This document shows, piece after piece, positions 9,643-38,957 of a DNA stretch of 50,897 nt; the first letter of the stretch is position 1; each line of letters opens with the position of its first letter. Below the pieces are notes generated by a model. The model did not search any database. It saw only the letters and a program-made list of their open reading frames with translations, and was not told where the DNA came from. Source of the stretch: Promethearchaeota archaeon (lineage in GTDB: Archaea; Asgardarchaeota; Lokiarchaeia; Sigyniarchaeales; SOKP01); contig JAHPYZ010000021.1 in assembly GCA_019058425.1 (NCBI GenBank), positions 5,793 to 56,689 on the forward strand. The letters run 5' to 3'. A program made the position numbers and the translations under genes.

Positions 9643-10896
9643 ATGAATGCCCGGAACATTATTTTAGGAATTGATGGAATACCTTTTGAGTTAATGGATT
9701 CTTTATCAGATAAAGGAGTTATGCCAAATTTTAAAGAACTTAAGAGTAATTTTTATTTTAAAGAGATGAAATCATCAATTCCACATATCTCTTCTGTCTC
9801 TTGGAGCTCAATTATAACTGGAAAAAATCCTGGAGAGCATGGAATTTTTGGATTTAGTGAATTAATAGAAGGAACTTACAGTCTTAGTTATCCAAATTTT
9901 AATGCTTTGAAATGTAAACCCTTTTGGCATCAACAGAATGAGAATAAACACGTGATTATAAACGTACCAGCAACCTATCCCGCAAAGATTCTTAACGGGG
10001 TTCATATAGCAGGATTTGTGGCCTTAGATTTAGAAAAAGCTGTATACCCTAAAACTTGTATTCCTAGTTTGAAACAGTTAAACTATGTAATTGATATAGA
10101 TTCAAGTTTAGCCCATAAACAATCTAAAGATATTTTATTTGATGAACTTATGAAAGTTTTAGATATTAGGAAAAATACCTATCAGTTTTTTTGGAATAAA
10201 TTAAATTGGCTTAATTTTATGGTCGTGATTACAAGTTCTGACAGATTTGGACATTTCTTATGGAACACATATGCAAATTCGGATAATAAATGGCATTCAA
10301 GAGCTGTACAATTCTTTCAAAAAATTGATGACTTCATTGGTGATATTAAGGATAAATTAAAAGAAAATGATAATTTTATTATATTATCTGATCATGGAAT
10401 GGAAGAAATAAAACAAAACATGAATTTAAATACATACCTAGAACATGAAGGTTTTCTTAAACTTTCAGATAAATACAAGAATTATAATCGTATCGCAAAA
10501 GGCACAAAAGCGTTTGTATTAGACCCCGGACGCATATATCTCAACAAAGAAGGTAAGTATCCCAATGGTTCTGTATTTAAATCCGAAGAAAAAGAAATAA
10601 TTGCAGATCTAAAAAATATCCTTTATGATTTAAAATATCAAAACCAAAAGGTAATTAGAAAAGTCCATGAAAAGAATGAAATATATAATGGGGTTAATAT
10701 TGATAAAGCACCTGATTTAGTTGTTTTAGAAAATTCTGGATTCCGTCCAAAAGGATCAATTGGAAAAGAATCTATCTTCGAAGAGGATAATTTATCAGGA
10801 ATGCACAATGATAGCGCTTTTCTTTTCATTAATAAAAAAATTAATATACAAAAACCGAACGTTCAAGATGTTATAGGTTTTTTAGGAGGAAATTAA
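9643..10896 (+). CDS. Alkaline-phosphatase-superfamily phosphodiesterase/phosphatase
   Basis: A 417-aa member of the type I phosphodiesterase/nucleotide pyrophosphatase family (PF01663-like). The N-terminal GIDGIPFELM holds the first metal-binding Asp (D11), the SSVSWSSIITGKNPGEHGIFGF region holds the Ser/Thr nucleophile, and SDHGM is the second metal site. No signal peptide is visible, so it is probably cytoplasmic. It lies 2 nt before the UDP-sulfoquinovose synthase gene, whose Shine-Dalgarno site sits inside its last codons, so the two are surely co-transcribed. It could hydrolyse a nucleotide-sugar or lipid-linked phosphate, but the substrate is unknown. Confidence 0.85.
   Translation: MNARNIILGIDGIPFELMDSLSDKGVMPNFKELKSNFYFKEMKSSIPHISSVSWSSIITGKNPGEHGIFGFSELIEGTYSLSYPNFNALKCKPFWHQQNENKHVIINVPATYPAKILNGVHIAGFVALDLEKAVYPKTCIPSLKQLNYVIDIDSSLAHKQSKDILFDELMKVLDIRKNTYQFFWNKLNWLNFMVVITSSDRFGHFLWNTYANSDNKWHSRAVQFFQKIDDFIGDIKDKLKENDNFIILSDHGMEEIKQNMNLNTYLEHEGFLKLSDKYKNYNRIAKGTKAFVLDPGRIYLNKEGKYPNGSVFKSEEKEIIADLKNILYDLKYQNQKVIRKVHEKNEIYNGVNIDKAPDLVVLENSGFRPKGSIGKESIFEEDNLSGMHNDSAFLFINKKINIQKPNVQDVIGFLGGN
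10884..10890 (+). promoter_or_regulatory. Strong Shine-Dalgarno for the UDP-sulfoquinovose synthase gene
   Basis: AGGAGGA ends 8 nt before ATG 10899 and lies within the last codons of the preceding phosphodiesterase gene. It is one of the strongest ribosome binding sites in the window and fixes the start, so the Cys-rich N-terminal extension is real. Confidence 0.75.
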
Positions 10897-10898
10897 GA

Positions 10899-12416
10899 AT
10901 GGATAAAATGCATAATTCTGATAAAACTTGTTGGAATTGCCCCGCAGCTAAATTAATGGGTAATGTTGACTTTAGAGCTTGTGGTCAAGCACGTGAGTTT
11001 AAAGCTGGCTTGGATGAAGAGGAAGAGATCGTTATTGAATGTCGAAGACGTCCTGAACTTGGGTATTTTGAACCTAATATCACATTTGAACAATGTCCAG
11101 AATGGATCGCTTCTGAATACGGGTATATACTAAAAAATATGAGAGTAATGATCTTAGGTATTGATGGATATTTAGGTTGGACATTAGCTTTAAAATTAGG
11201 GAAATTAGGGTTTCAAATTAGCGGACTTGATAACTACACTCGCCGTGATTGTGTAATGGAAAAAGGAGCTCATACAATTATTCCTATTGAGAGAATGACA
11301 CAAAGATTAAAAATTGCTCGTGACATTTTGGGAATAAATATTAATTTCCGCAAAATAGATCTTCTTGATGCATCAAAAGTCAGAGAGTTTTTAGAAGAAG
11401 TTAAACCTGAAGCTATAGTTCATTATGGTGAAATTCCGAGTGCTCCGTACAGTATGGCTGACTCTGAACATGCTGTTAGAGTACAAGAAAATAATGTAAT
11501 AGGAACTCTGAAACTATTATGGATAATAAAAGATGTCGTTCCTGAAACCTGTCTAATTAAATTGGGGACGATGGGAGAGTATGGATCTCCATTAACTGGG
11601 CGACCACTTTTCGAAGGCTTATTCCCTGCAGATGCTATAATCAAATGGGATGAACGCGAATGGAGTCTAGGAGGAGAAACAACGCCTAGAGATCCAGTTA
11701 GTTTTTATCATGCAAGTAAGGTTCAAGACACTTTCAATGTTTTAGAAGCTTGTAAATATTGGTGGTTACGTTCTTATGATATTATGCAAGGTGTAATTTA
11801 TGGTGTCTATACTGAAGAATTGGCTGTAGATAAGAAGTTAAGGACAAGATATGATATTGATGAATGGTTTGGTACGGTTATTAATAGATTTGTAGCGCAA
11901 GCAGTGACAGGAATACCATTAACAATATATGGACAAGGTGAACAAATCAGAGGTTTCATTGCGCTAAATGATGCAATGCAATGTATGATTAGATTAATAG
12001 TTTCTCCCCCAGAACCTGGACAATATGATGTAGTTAATCAAGTTTCCGGATTGTACAAAATTAGTGACTTAGCAGAAGCGATTGCTAAGATTGGTAATAA
12101 AAAATTTAATTTGAATGTAATGATAAAAAGAATTGAAAACCCAAGAGTAGAAGCCGATAATCATCCACTTGAAGTAGTTTCGAGAAAATTGCCAAGATTT
12201 TTTGGATTTACACCACAAATAGATTTAGAAGAAGAAATTGAGAGAATGATTGAGGTGTTACTAGAAGAAGAAATTAAAAAGCGTATTGATTTGAAAAAAC
12301 ATACAATCCTACCAGTCACTACATGGCAAGGAGAAAAACGAGAAATGAAAGAATTAGAAAAGTATGAACCTGGAACAAGAGAATCTAAAGGATATAAACC
12401 AATATTTGATACATAA
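10899..12416 (+). CDS. agl3: UDP-sulfoquinovose synthase (Agl3/SQD1 family) with Cys-rich N-terminal extension
   Basis: This enzyme should convert UDP-glucose plus sulfite to UDP-sulfoquinovose. Residues about 81-460 match SQD1/Agl3: GIDGYLGW (87-94) for NAD, SAPYSM (181-186), LGTMGEYG with catalytic Thr224, and YHASK with Tyr270/Lys274, then NQ/MQGVIYGV and IYGQGEQIRGFI. Agl3 of Sulfolobus makes the sulfoquinovose of an N-glycan. Unusually, about 80 residues precede the fold with cysteines at 11, 14, 28, 48 and 66, beginning CWNCPAAK, which could bind zinc or an iron-sulfur cluster or form disulfides. The stop overlaps the start of a thioredoxin gene (TAATG). Total 505 aa against about 390-400 for the core family. 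Confidence 0.88.
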   Translation: MDKMHNSDKTCWNCPAAKLMGNVDFRACGQAREFKAGLDEEEEIVIECRRRPELGYFEPNITFEQCPEWIASEYGYILKNMRVMILGIDGYLGWTLALKLGKLGFQISGLDNYTRRDCVMEKGAHTIIPIERMTQRLKIARDILGININFRKIDLLDASKVREFLEEVKPEAIVHYGEIPSAPYSMADSEHAVRVQENNVIGTLKLLWIIKDVVPETCLIKLGTMGEYGSPLTGRPLFEGLFPADAIIKWDEREWSLGGETTPRDPVSFYHASKVQDTFNVLEACKYWWLRSYDIMQGVIYGVYTEELAVDKKLRTRYDIDEWFGTVINRFVAQAVTGIPLTIYGQGEQIRGFIALNDAMQCMIRLIVSPPEPGQYDVVNQVSGLYKISDLAEAIAKIGNKKFNLNVMIKRIENPRVEADNHPLEVVSRKLPRFFGFTPQIDLEEEIERMIEVLLEEEIKKRIDLKKHTILPVTTWQGEKREMKELEKYEPGTRESKGYKPIFDT

Positions 12417-12733
12417 TGATGGAAGTTACAGATAAAAATTTTGAACAGGAAATCCTCAATTCAGAAGTTCCTGTATTAATCGAATTTTGGGCATCTTGGT
12501 GTGTTCCCTGTAAAGCTATGGAATATTTGTTAAAAGAATTGGATAAACAATATAATGGAAAAATAAAAATAGCTAAACTAAATATTGATAGACAGAGAAA
12601 AACTCCGAAAAAATATGATTTGACGGGGGTTCCAACTTTTGCTACTTTTTTAAAAGGAACCTTGAAGGAAATGGTTGTAGGGGCTCAAACAAAAAAGAAT
12701 TTAATCCTTATGATTGAAAATTTAATAAAATGA
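12416..12733 (+). CDS. Thioredoxin, translationally coupled to UDP-sulfoquinovose synthase
   Basis: A compact 105-aa thioredoxin. It has the redox site WCVPC within FWASWCVPCKAM, the cis-proline loop GVPTF, and the usual length for a one-domain thioredoxin. No signal peptide is seen, so it is cytosolic. Its ATG at 12416 overlaps the stop codon of the preceding gene by one base; a second ATG follows at 12419 and either could be used. Such coupling suggests a shared function: reducing the synthase's cysteine-rich domain or feeding electrons to sulfite formation. That link is inference. Confidence 0.92.
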   Translation: MMEVTDKNFEQEILNSEVPVLIEFWASWCVPCKAMEYLLKELDKQYNGKIKIAKLNIDRQRKTPKKYDLTGVPTFATFLKGTLKEMVVGAQTKKNLILMIENLIK

Positions 12734-38216: not shown

Positions 38217-38957
38217 TTATTCTTGTTCGATATTCTTTTCCATAAAAGTGCCACATCGAAGTAAAGTTCTAAAAGTACCTGCATCAGACCAAAAACCTTC
38301 CACAATTTGAGCTTTAGTTATTCCCATTTTAATATAATAATTATTAACATCAGTGATCTCCAGCTCTCCTCGGTCTGAATATCCAATATTATTTATTACT
38401 TCTTCGATTATTTCAAATATTCTCTCATCATAGAAATAAAGCCCGGTTACACATAAATCAGTTTTAGGAACCTGGGGTTTTTCTTCAATATTAATAATTT
38501 CTCCCCTTTCATTTAGTTCTGCTACACCGAATCTCTCAGGATCAGGAACTTCTTTTAGAAATAAAAAACAACCATATTCTTTAGATTTTTCAAATTCTCT
38601 TACAGCATTAGAAAAAGAATTCTCAAATATATTATCACCTAATATAACAGCAATTTTATGACCTTTAACGATTTTTTTAGTTATATATAAAGCTTCGGCA
38701 ATACCACCAGCGCCTTGTTGATATACATAACTAAAATGAGCATTAAAATTCGAACCATCGCCTAGTAACCTAATAAAATCACCAACACTTTCACCACCTA
38801 AAACAATTGTTATTTCTGTTATTCCAGAATGGGTTATTGTTTTAATGACTTTATAAATCATTGGCTCATCATAAACTGGTAGAAGATGTTTATTTGTAAC
38901 TTTTGTAAGGGGAGCTAATCTTGTACCGAAGCCTCCTGCTAAAATAACACCTTTAAT
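38217..38957 (-). CDS. rmlA: Glucose-1-phosphate thymidylyltransferase, apparent ATT start
   Basis: A nucleotidyltransferase making dTDP-glucose (or a similar NDP-sugar) from the sugar 1-phosphate. The N-terminus reads (I/M)KGVILAGGFGTRLAPLT, then NKHLLPVYDEPMIY, ILGDNIF, VEEKP-like NIEEKPQVPKT, GLYFYDE, ELEITDVNNYY and GFWSDAGTF. The Met of all RmlA proteins falls exactly on an ATT at 38957; an in-frame TGA lies three codons upstream and no ATG occurs before 38861, which would remove the G-G-x-G-T-R-L active site. With ATT the protein is 246 aa, a short-form RmlA. Confidence 0.87.
   Translation of the reverse strand: MKGVILAGGFGTRLAPLTKVTNKHLLPVYDEPMIYKVIKTITHSGITEITIVLGGESVGDFIRLLGDGSNFNAHFSYVYQQGAGGIAEALYITKKIVKGHKIAVILGDNIFENSFSNAVREFEKSKEYGCFLFLKEVPDPERFGVAELNERGEIINIEEKPQVPKTDLCVTGLYFYDERIFEIIEEVINNIGYSDRGELEITDVNNYYIKMGITKAQIVEGFWSDAGTFRTLLRCGTFMEKNIEQE

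Follow-up and report, generated by a model that had tools for sequence, protein, structure and literature searches.

The window analysed here, a stretch of 50,897 nucleotides from a Promethearchaeota archaeon (contig JAHPYZ010000021.1 of assembly GCA_019058425.1, positions 5,793 to 56,689 of the forward strand), contains a compact group of three genes: a phosphodiesterase, an SQD1-like short-chain dehydrogenase/reductase (SDR) with an N-terminal cysteine domain, and a thioredoxin (Table 1). The stop of the first is located 2 bases ahead of the start of the second, and the open reading frames (ORFs) of the second and third have one base in common, within TAATG. These genes, referred to as the cassette, recur as a fixed set in archaea of widely separated lineages and in one or more bacteria. 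The initial annotation had described a two-gene module, a UDP-sulfoquinovose synthase with a cysteine-rich extension coupled to a thioredoxin. The positions of both ORFs and their 1-base overlap were found as it gave them and the thioredoxin linkage was borne out, but the upstream phosphodiesterase, equally conserved, had been overlooked.

A pattern-based scan of 84,980 species genomes, sensitive to close relatives only, recovered six full-length relatives of the SQD1-like enzyme at 70-95% identity: two Lokiarchaeota, two Theionarchaea, one Altiarchaeales and one Zipacnadia bacterium. All these hosts are metagenome bins; Altiarchaeales and Zipacnadia are represented by one genome each. Profile searches (E <= 1e-50) were carried out in the four phyla concerned. 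In that of the window, 10 of 227 genomes matched, eight with extended and two with unextended genes; G118 and G108 are, by their contig coordinates, the two Lokiarchaeota of the pattern scan. The phylum of the Theionarchaea gave 2/115 matches, that of Zipacnadia 2/291 (one extended) and that of the Altiarchaeales 1/29. The total is 12 extended genes in 12 genomes, the window included. The distribution is patchy: among the 19 same-genus genomes listed, only that of the window and G118 carry the cassette. No extended homologue was found in viral contigs.

All three genes, in the order phosphodiesterase, SQD1-like enzyme, thioredoxin, are present at 10 of the 12 loci; L029 and L030 are each cut by a contig end, L029 lacking its upstream side and L030 its downstream side. 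Wherever the upstream side is visible, the phosphodiesterase is present (11/11). The conservation of the thioredoxin beside the extended enzymes, whose failure the initial annotation had named as a refutation, was likewise upheld, in 11/11 loci whose downstream side is visible and within a set of 12 genomes that includes other archaea. In the 10 complete loci, the intergenic gaps range from -14 to +76 bases, with starts chosen by us. Between the SQD1-like and thioredoxin genes, the range is -4 to +76 bases, the thioredoxin start of L009 being uncertain; the exact 1-base overlap is thus not conserved.

As a comparison set, 91 unextended homologues were used: 80 from viral contigs (the best 80 of 153 stretches), four from genomes and seven from plasmids. 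The 80 viral loci include some near-copies; at least 400 bases are available downstream in 76 of them and at least 1,300 upstream in 73. No thioredoxin was found in the available flanks of any of these homologues (0/91). In a modest check of its reach, the thioredoxin profile did recover the phage thioredoxin-like ORFs L161 and L162 (38-39% identity to the window's thioredoxin, picked by tblastn). A phosphodiesterase-related gene stands beside an unextended homologue once in 91: on a Haladaptatus plasmid (L040:1407-4185), an alkaline phosphatase family gene lies directly upstream of the SQD1-like gene.

Two further observations concern the unextended enzymes. Genome G176 carries a second SQD1-like gene (L041:5485-6645), which is unextended, scores 350 bits to the NF041015 model and has no thioredoxin neighbour. 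In addition, SQD1-like enzymes are encoded in IMG/VR viral contigs (L042-L121), and among the best 80 of 153, 39 have the EQR motif that SQD1 and Agl3 share; such EQR-bearing genes are possibly sulfosugar genes of viruses.

The window enzyme matches NF041015, the NCBIfam model of UDP-sulfoquinovose synthase, with 407.8 bits over residues 81-477, and the SQD1 sequence of PDB entry 1i24 with an E-value of 9.4e-78. A first AlphaFold2 (AF2) model, built with 7 close sequences, had a predicted local distance difference test score (pLDDT) of 39 and was useless. The second, built with 65 sequences, reached 84.6 overall: most core blocks exceed 90, residues 221-270 lie at 66-77, and the loop stretch 221-260 at only 66-68. 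The nearest structure in a Foldseek search of this model is again SQD1 (1qrr, E 1.5e-42, TMt 0.93), the next families following at 1e-20. Both elements that passages of PMC8987622 and PMC4388408 give as the family fingerprint are present in the window protein: GxxGxxG of the NAD site (G87, G90, G93) and [ST]MG...YxxxK (T224-M225-G226, Y270 and K274). The catalytic residues H175, M225, E227, Y228, Y270 and K274 are kept; H175, M225, Y270 and K274 correspond to His95, Met145, Tyr182 and Lys186, given as essential for Agl3 in a part of PMC4388408. Residues that are invariant and specific to the cassette enzymes concentrate in a loop and in the C-terminal tail, the others being scattered in the core. 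In the loop, L232, T233, R235, W255, S256, G258, E260 and T262 occur in 12/12 cassette enzymes and are absent from the unextended rows that align there.

Residues 1-80 extend this core: the alignments with SQD1 of the PDB and with NF041015 both begin at residue 81. The domain contains five cysteines in the window protein (C11, C14, C28, C48 and C66). By alignment columns, they are invariant in all cassette proteins having the position: 11/11 for each of the first three and 12/12 for each of the last two. Conservation of the cysteines among orthologues had been set beforehand as a test that could refute the proposal, and this is what was found. The domain was detected in 0/91 unextended homologues (lowest E 0.1). 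As they are invariant here and the domain is absent from all 91 others, they are not there by chance. When 222 genomes from the phylum of the window were searched with a profile of the domain, nine matched, eight of them at the cassette gene. The ninth match covers 29 residues in a 37-aa frame (E 0.003); rescoring gave this locus no support, and it looks chance-like.

Membership of the domain in a known Pfam or PDB family was considered and dropped, as the scans gave nothing usable. For the window domain, no Pfam family appeared at E <= 10. When 7 members were scanned, two families matched 3 and 2 non-window members, with best E-values of only 0.039 and 0.19, and a profile search of the PDB sequences returned nothing at E <= 10. 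The spacing of C11, C14, C28 and C48 does fit the CX2CXnCXnC ligand pattern of HiPIP-like [4Fe-4S] domains, a pattern that leaves metal and fold undecidable from sequence.

Table 1. Features of the cassette in the window, and loci of the sulfate-activation operon
Feature	Position	Strand	Remarks
PF01663 type I phosphodiesterase / nucleotide pyrophosphatase (alkaline phosphatase superfamily)	9643..10896	+	417 aa; Pfam E 6.2e-37; opens the cassette
SQD1-like SDR with a Cys domain at its N-terminus and a tail at its C-terminus	10899..12416	+	505 aa
N-terminal domain, residues 1-80	10899..11138	+	CX2C-X13-C-X19-C-X17-C; alignment, Cys columns
Pro180 codon, aligned to the essential Agl3 Arg (EQRSAP)	11436..11438	+	alignment
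Cassette-specific loop, residues 231-262, between TMGEYG and YxxxK	11589..11684	+	alignment, 12 cassette vs 70 unextended rows
C-terminal tail (residues 478-505); Y489, P491 and G498 are cassette-specific	12330..12413	+	11/11 rows reaching the tail
Thioredoxin, WCVPCK active site, GVPT cis-Pro site	12416..12733	+	105 aa; Pfam PF00085 E 2.5e-27
Sulfate-activation operon loci	L153:5271-8684; L154-L157, L159, L163-L168, L170		RHH-like protein unseen in L166 (contig end)

The active site of the cassette thioredoxins is WCxPC in 11/11, in the form C[VLPI]PC, and the cis-Pro site reads GVPT or GLPT. The classical thioredoxin active site, CGPC, occurs in 0/11. The phosphodiesterase of the window contains the motifs GIDG, SSVSW, SDRFGH and SDHGM, which we take to be catalytic or metal-binding; the SDRxxH pattern was not found in the phosphodiesterase of L030. 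Against the PDB, only weak matches to ENPP1 and ENPP4 were obtained.

In a tree of 82 proteins, for which the 79 viral homologues with a minimum length of 370 aa were thinned to 58 (alignment and model likewise), the 12 cassette enzymes form one clade (100/100) with a stem of 1.42 substitutions per site. The Theionarchaeal pair is nested among the sequences of the window's phylum, grouping with five of them at 93/71 and at 99/95 with the full eight, the pattern that horizontal transfer would give. Between the three proteins, pairwise distances are correlated (r = 0.60, 0.61 and 0.78, values reached by 17, 18 and 10 of 5000 permutations) in a small test on 8, 8 and 7 loci, near-copies L005, L010 and L028 being left out; this is consistent with the genes moving as a unit. 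Median identity is 70% for the SQD1-like enzyme and 49% for both thioredoxin and phosphodiesterase. The cassette may be a horizontally moved three-gene operon, with a transfer direction that neither trees nor distances show.

Other genes near the cassette were noted as well. A TrmB-type sugar-sensing regulator lies beside the cassette phosphodiesterase at L151:7728-8549 (L151 is the same locus as L008), L027:3007-3864 and L028:3239-4096, and near it at L030:3-749; the TrmB domains were identified by scanning, except in L028, where the assignment is by resemblance only. Farther along the window, at 38217-38861, a 214-aa nucleotidyltransferase-like ORF has an N-terminus that looks short by eye and is possibly truncated.

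In the host genomes and in cassette-free relatives, a conserved sulfate-activation operon (Table 1) is composed of a ribbon-helix-helix (RHH)-like small protein, ATP sulfurylase, a phosphodiesterase of the PF01663 kind and adenosine 5'-phosphosulfate (APS) kinase, in varying order. Of the 10 cassette genomes that have ATP sulfurylase, 7 carry such a related phosphodiesterase in its operon, as do all six cassette-free examples examined. In two cassette genomes, G176 and G177 (L158, L169), a DHH phosphoesterase takes its place, which hints that the operon phosphodiesterases may process nucleotide by-products, perhaps 3'-phosphoadenosine 5'-phosphate (PAP). In the Altiarchaeal genome, an ATP sulfurylase-APS kinase pair and the cassette share one 23-kb contig, with an extra phosphodiesterase beside the cassette. 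The operon phosphodiesterase of Zipacnadia joins the cassette clade at 100/99 under midpoint rooting, with identities of 31-38%, the only one to do so among the copies compared. The cassette phosphodiesterase was also considered as proof of a sulfonucleotide link. This was weakened by the related phosphodiesterase found between ATP sulfurylase and APS kinase in 6/6 same-genus cassette-free loci.

Tentatively, and with somewhat less than even confidence in the whole, we read the trio as a horizontally moved operon that would make a C6-modified UDP-hexose, most likely sulfonated, for surface glycans. The core would oxidise and dehydrate UDP-glucose to a 5,6-ene, like SQD1 and Agl3. C11, C14, C28 and C48 may hold a metal or Fe-S centre, as in HiPIP-like or rubredoxin-like accessory domains, and the fifth cysteine, C66, or the oxidised set would be the target of the thioredoxin. 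The latter would reduce the cysteine domain at each turnover or for activation. A sulfur nucleophile could then be released or kept near the sugar rather than captured as free sulfite. The phosphodiesterase would putatively hydrolyse a nucleotide, or a nucleotide-sugar, that the SQD1-like/thioredoxin pair produces or uses.

A bolder version, which we regard as quite doubtful, is a self-contained, thioredoxin-driven sulfosugar synthase that would not use free sulfite at all. The cysteine domain would take sulfur from an activated donor, such as APS, 3'-phosphoadenosine 5'-phosphosulfate (PAPS) or a thiosulfonate, and bind it to the enzyme as an S-sulfonate or persulfide, the thioredoxin would release it onto the 5,6-ene, and the phosphodiesterase would clear the nucleotide by-product. 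If true, sulfate reduction and sugar sulfonation would be joined in one module, and five of the 12 hosts carrying it are genomes in which neither CysH nor PF01077 was seen.

Several observations weigh against the sulfonated-hexose reading. The position of Arg101 of Agl3 (EQRSAP) is occupied by Pro in 12/12 cassette enzymes; the R101A mutant of Agl3 is inactive (PMC4388408, the residue being recognised via the mutagenic primer). Pro is found there in many unextended homologues too (EQP or EIP), so that the replacement was dropped as a mark of the cassette. The Met of TMG is Leu in 4/12 cassette enzymes (L026, L027, L028 and L030). In the midpoint-rooted tree, which includes SQD1 of 1i24 and not Agl3, the cassette clade stands opposite the SQD1/SqdB half. 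The weakest point is the score of the cassette enzymes, 405-428 bits (217 for the contig-cut copy of G003) for a strict NF041015 cut-off of 575. None of the 20 genomes, unextended homologues included, exceeds this cut-off. The model matches just two control species, Synechococcus elongatus and Sulfolobus acidocaldarius, of which one passes. The failure is therefore weak evidence, since unextended homologues and one of the two matching controls fail as well. The evidence falls short of the name UDP-sulfoquinovose synthase: the SQD1 fold and the catalytic Tyr and Lys agree with it, but the separate clade, the Arg-to-Pro replacement and the sub-threshold score do not, and the enzyme is filed as an SQD1-like subfamily of its own, not as a proven UDP-sulfoquinovose synthase. 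The structure model, proposed as a way to judge metal binding, is good for the core but has pLDDT block means of only 39-58 over residues 1-60, where no domain fold is readable. That the thioredoxin is dedicated to the cassette would follow from linkage, the one line of evidence for it.

ATP sulfurylase is present in 10 of the 12 cassette genomes, and the sulfate-activation operon in most, but equally in cassette-free relatives. A CysH-type reductase gives a strong match in five, only a weak one in two and none in five, among them the window's own genome, which is 97.6% complete. Sulfite reductase PF01077 matches 0/12 cassette genomes, while 11 of 14 control species match. Ten cassette-free genomes of the same genus give similar counts: ATP sulfurylase in seven (one in broken pieces), CysH in three, and PF01077 in none above the cut-off (one weak, broken match). 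These features therefore do not track the cassette. The cassette proteins have no match to PF01507 (CysH-type), and no sulfur-donor gene is present within the cassette. A search with PF12139 (APS reductase beta) matched nothing, controls included, and is uninformative. As five of the 12 hosts have no CysH match, the thioredoxin cannot simply be serving CysH in several hosts, unless their assemblies lack the stretch that carries this gene. A role of the thioredoxin in sulfite formation, put forward in the initial annotation, was not established, with CysH strong in only 5/12 genomes and PF01077 in 0/12; its suggestion of redox control or sulfite delivery by the pair is kept as a hypothesis.

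An unlikely alternative to the sulfonation mechanism is a redox switch: the cysteines would form a regulatory disulfide or an oxygen-sensitive cluster closing the active site, and the thioredoxin would reduce them under anoxia, without sulfur chemistry, sulfite or another nucleophile arriving free. Invariant cysteines outside the catalytic core and a linked thioredoxin are what such a switch would require, and the hosts of the pattern scan belong to lineages that we take to be anaerobic. However, five cysteines in a conserved CX2CXnCXnC arrangement favour a metal site over a simple disulfide, and the phosphodiesterase is left unexplained.

Improbable as well, in our judgement, is a core that makes no sulfo-sugar but is a derived UDP-hexose dehydratase/reductase type, whose product needs electrons from the thioredoxin and no sulfur. 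The separate clade on its long stem, the Arg-to-Pro change and the altered loop would fit such an enzyme, as would the five hosts with CysH unmatched and the 12 with PF01077 unmatched and, weakly, the score under the family cut-off. Yet the window protein retains H175, M225, E227, Y228, Y270 and K274 (with the Met replaced in the four enzymes mentioned), and SQD1 is by far the closest solved structure.

A structural metal domain, with Zn or Fe-S serving stability or oligomer contacts and a thioredoxin that merely keeps the cysteines reduced, seems rather improbable. It has a precedent in the Fe-S accessory subunits of glycyl radical enzymes, which according to a section of PMC12358834 matter for soluble expression or conformational regulation, but a thioredoxin retained beside the gene across inter-phylum transfers exceeds a housekeeping need. 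Finally, a chance neighbourhood within a glycan gene cluster, suggested by the glycosyltransferase-like ORFs around the trio in the window and some relatives (by eye), is rejected as next to impossible, as the trio is complete in 10 of 12 genomes, stays intact in L027 and L028 among unrelated neighbours such as a UvrB-like ORF (by eye), and has no counterpart with a thioredoxin in the available flanks of the 91 unextended homologues.

The sulfonation reading bears on a question of the known enzymes. How UDP-sulfoquinovose synthases receive sulfite in vivo was stated to be unknown in 2015, in a passage of PMC4388408 that also mentions the co-purification of plant SQD1 with ferredoxin-dependent glutamate synthase, a redox enzyme. 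For these two reasons, a natural thioredoxin-linked version matters: a co-transferred thioredoxin and a private cysteine domain would offer a direct handle on the route of sulfur to C6 of the sugar. Should a sulfo-sugar be the product, it would point to sulfonated surface glycans in Asgard archaea and in other archaea that live anaerobically. Otherwise, the cassette enzymes still are a distinct, strongly conserved subfamily, with UDP-sulfoquinovose synthase as its nearest NCBIfam model. The arrangement was not found described in a literature search over titles and the beginnings of abstracts of the papers listed, which is not proof.

With SQD1 of Arabidopsis (1i24/1qrr) and Agl3 of Sulfolobus acidocaldarius, the cassette enzyme has in common the SDR fold, GxxGxxG, TMGEYG and YxxxK, with about 37% core identity to SQD1. 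It differs by the 80-residue cysteine domain, the changed loop 231-262, the C-terminal tail, the replacement of EQR by EIP, ECP or EVP, the linked thioredoxin and phosphodiesterase, and a clade apart from SQD1. The unextended EIP/EQP-type enzymes found in archaea and on viral contigs (L033, L058, L067, L077 and others) share its half of the tree, some even with EIPSAP, but lack the cysteine domain and, in the available flanks, the thioredoxin. The CysH-type PAPS/APS reductases need thioredoxin to free sulfite from an enzyme Cys-S-sulfonate. They differ in that PF01507 is unmatched in the cassette proteins and that five of the 12 genomes have no CysH match. The domain itself shares its pattern with the HiPIP-like and rubredoxin-like accessory subunits of glycyl radical enzymes (MASS beta, gamma and delta; BSS beta and gamma), where CX2CXnCXnC likewise occurs in a small domain on an anaerobic enzyme. 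As described in parts of PMC12358834, this pattern binds [4Fe-4S] or one Fe in these subunits: the cysteines are Cys32, 35, 51 and 86 in MASS beta, and the rubredoxin-like MASS delta holds a single Fe. The PDB profile search found no sequence relation to them and, in contrast to these subunits, the cassette domain is fused to an SDR and has a fifth invariant cysteine.

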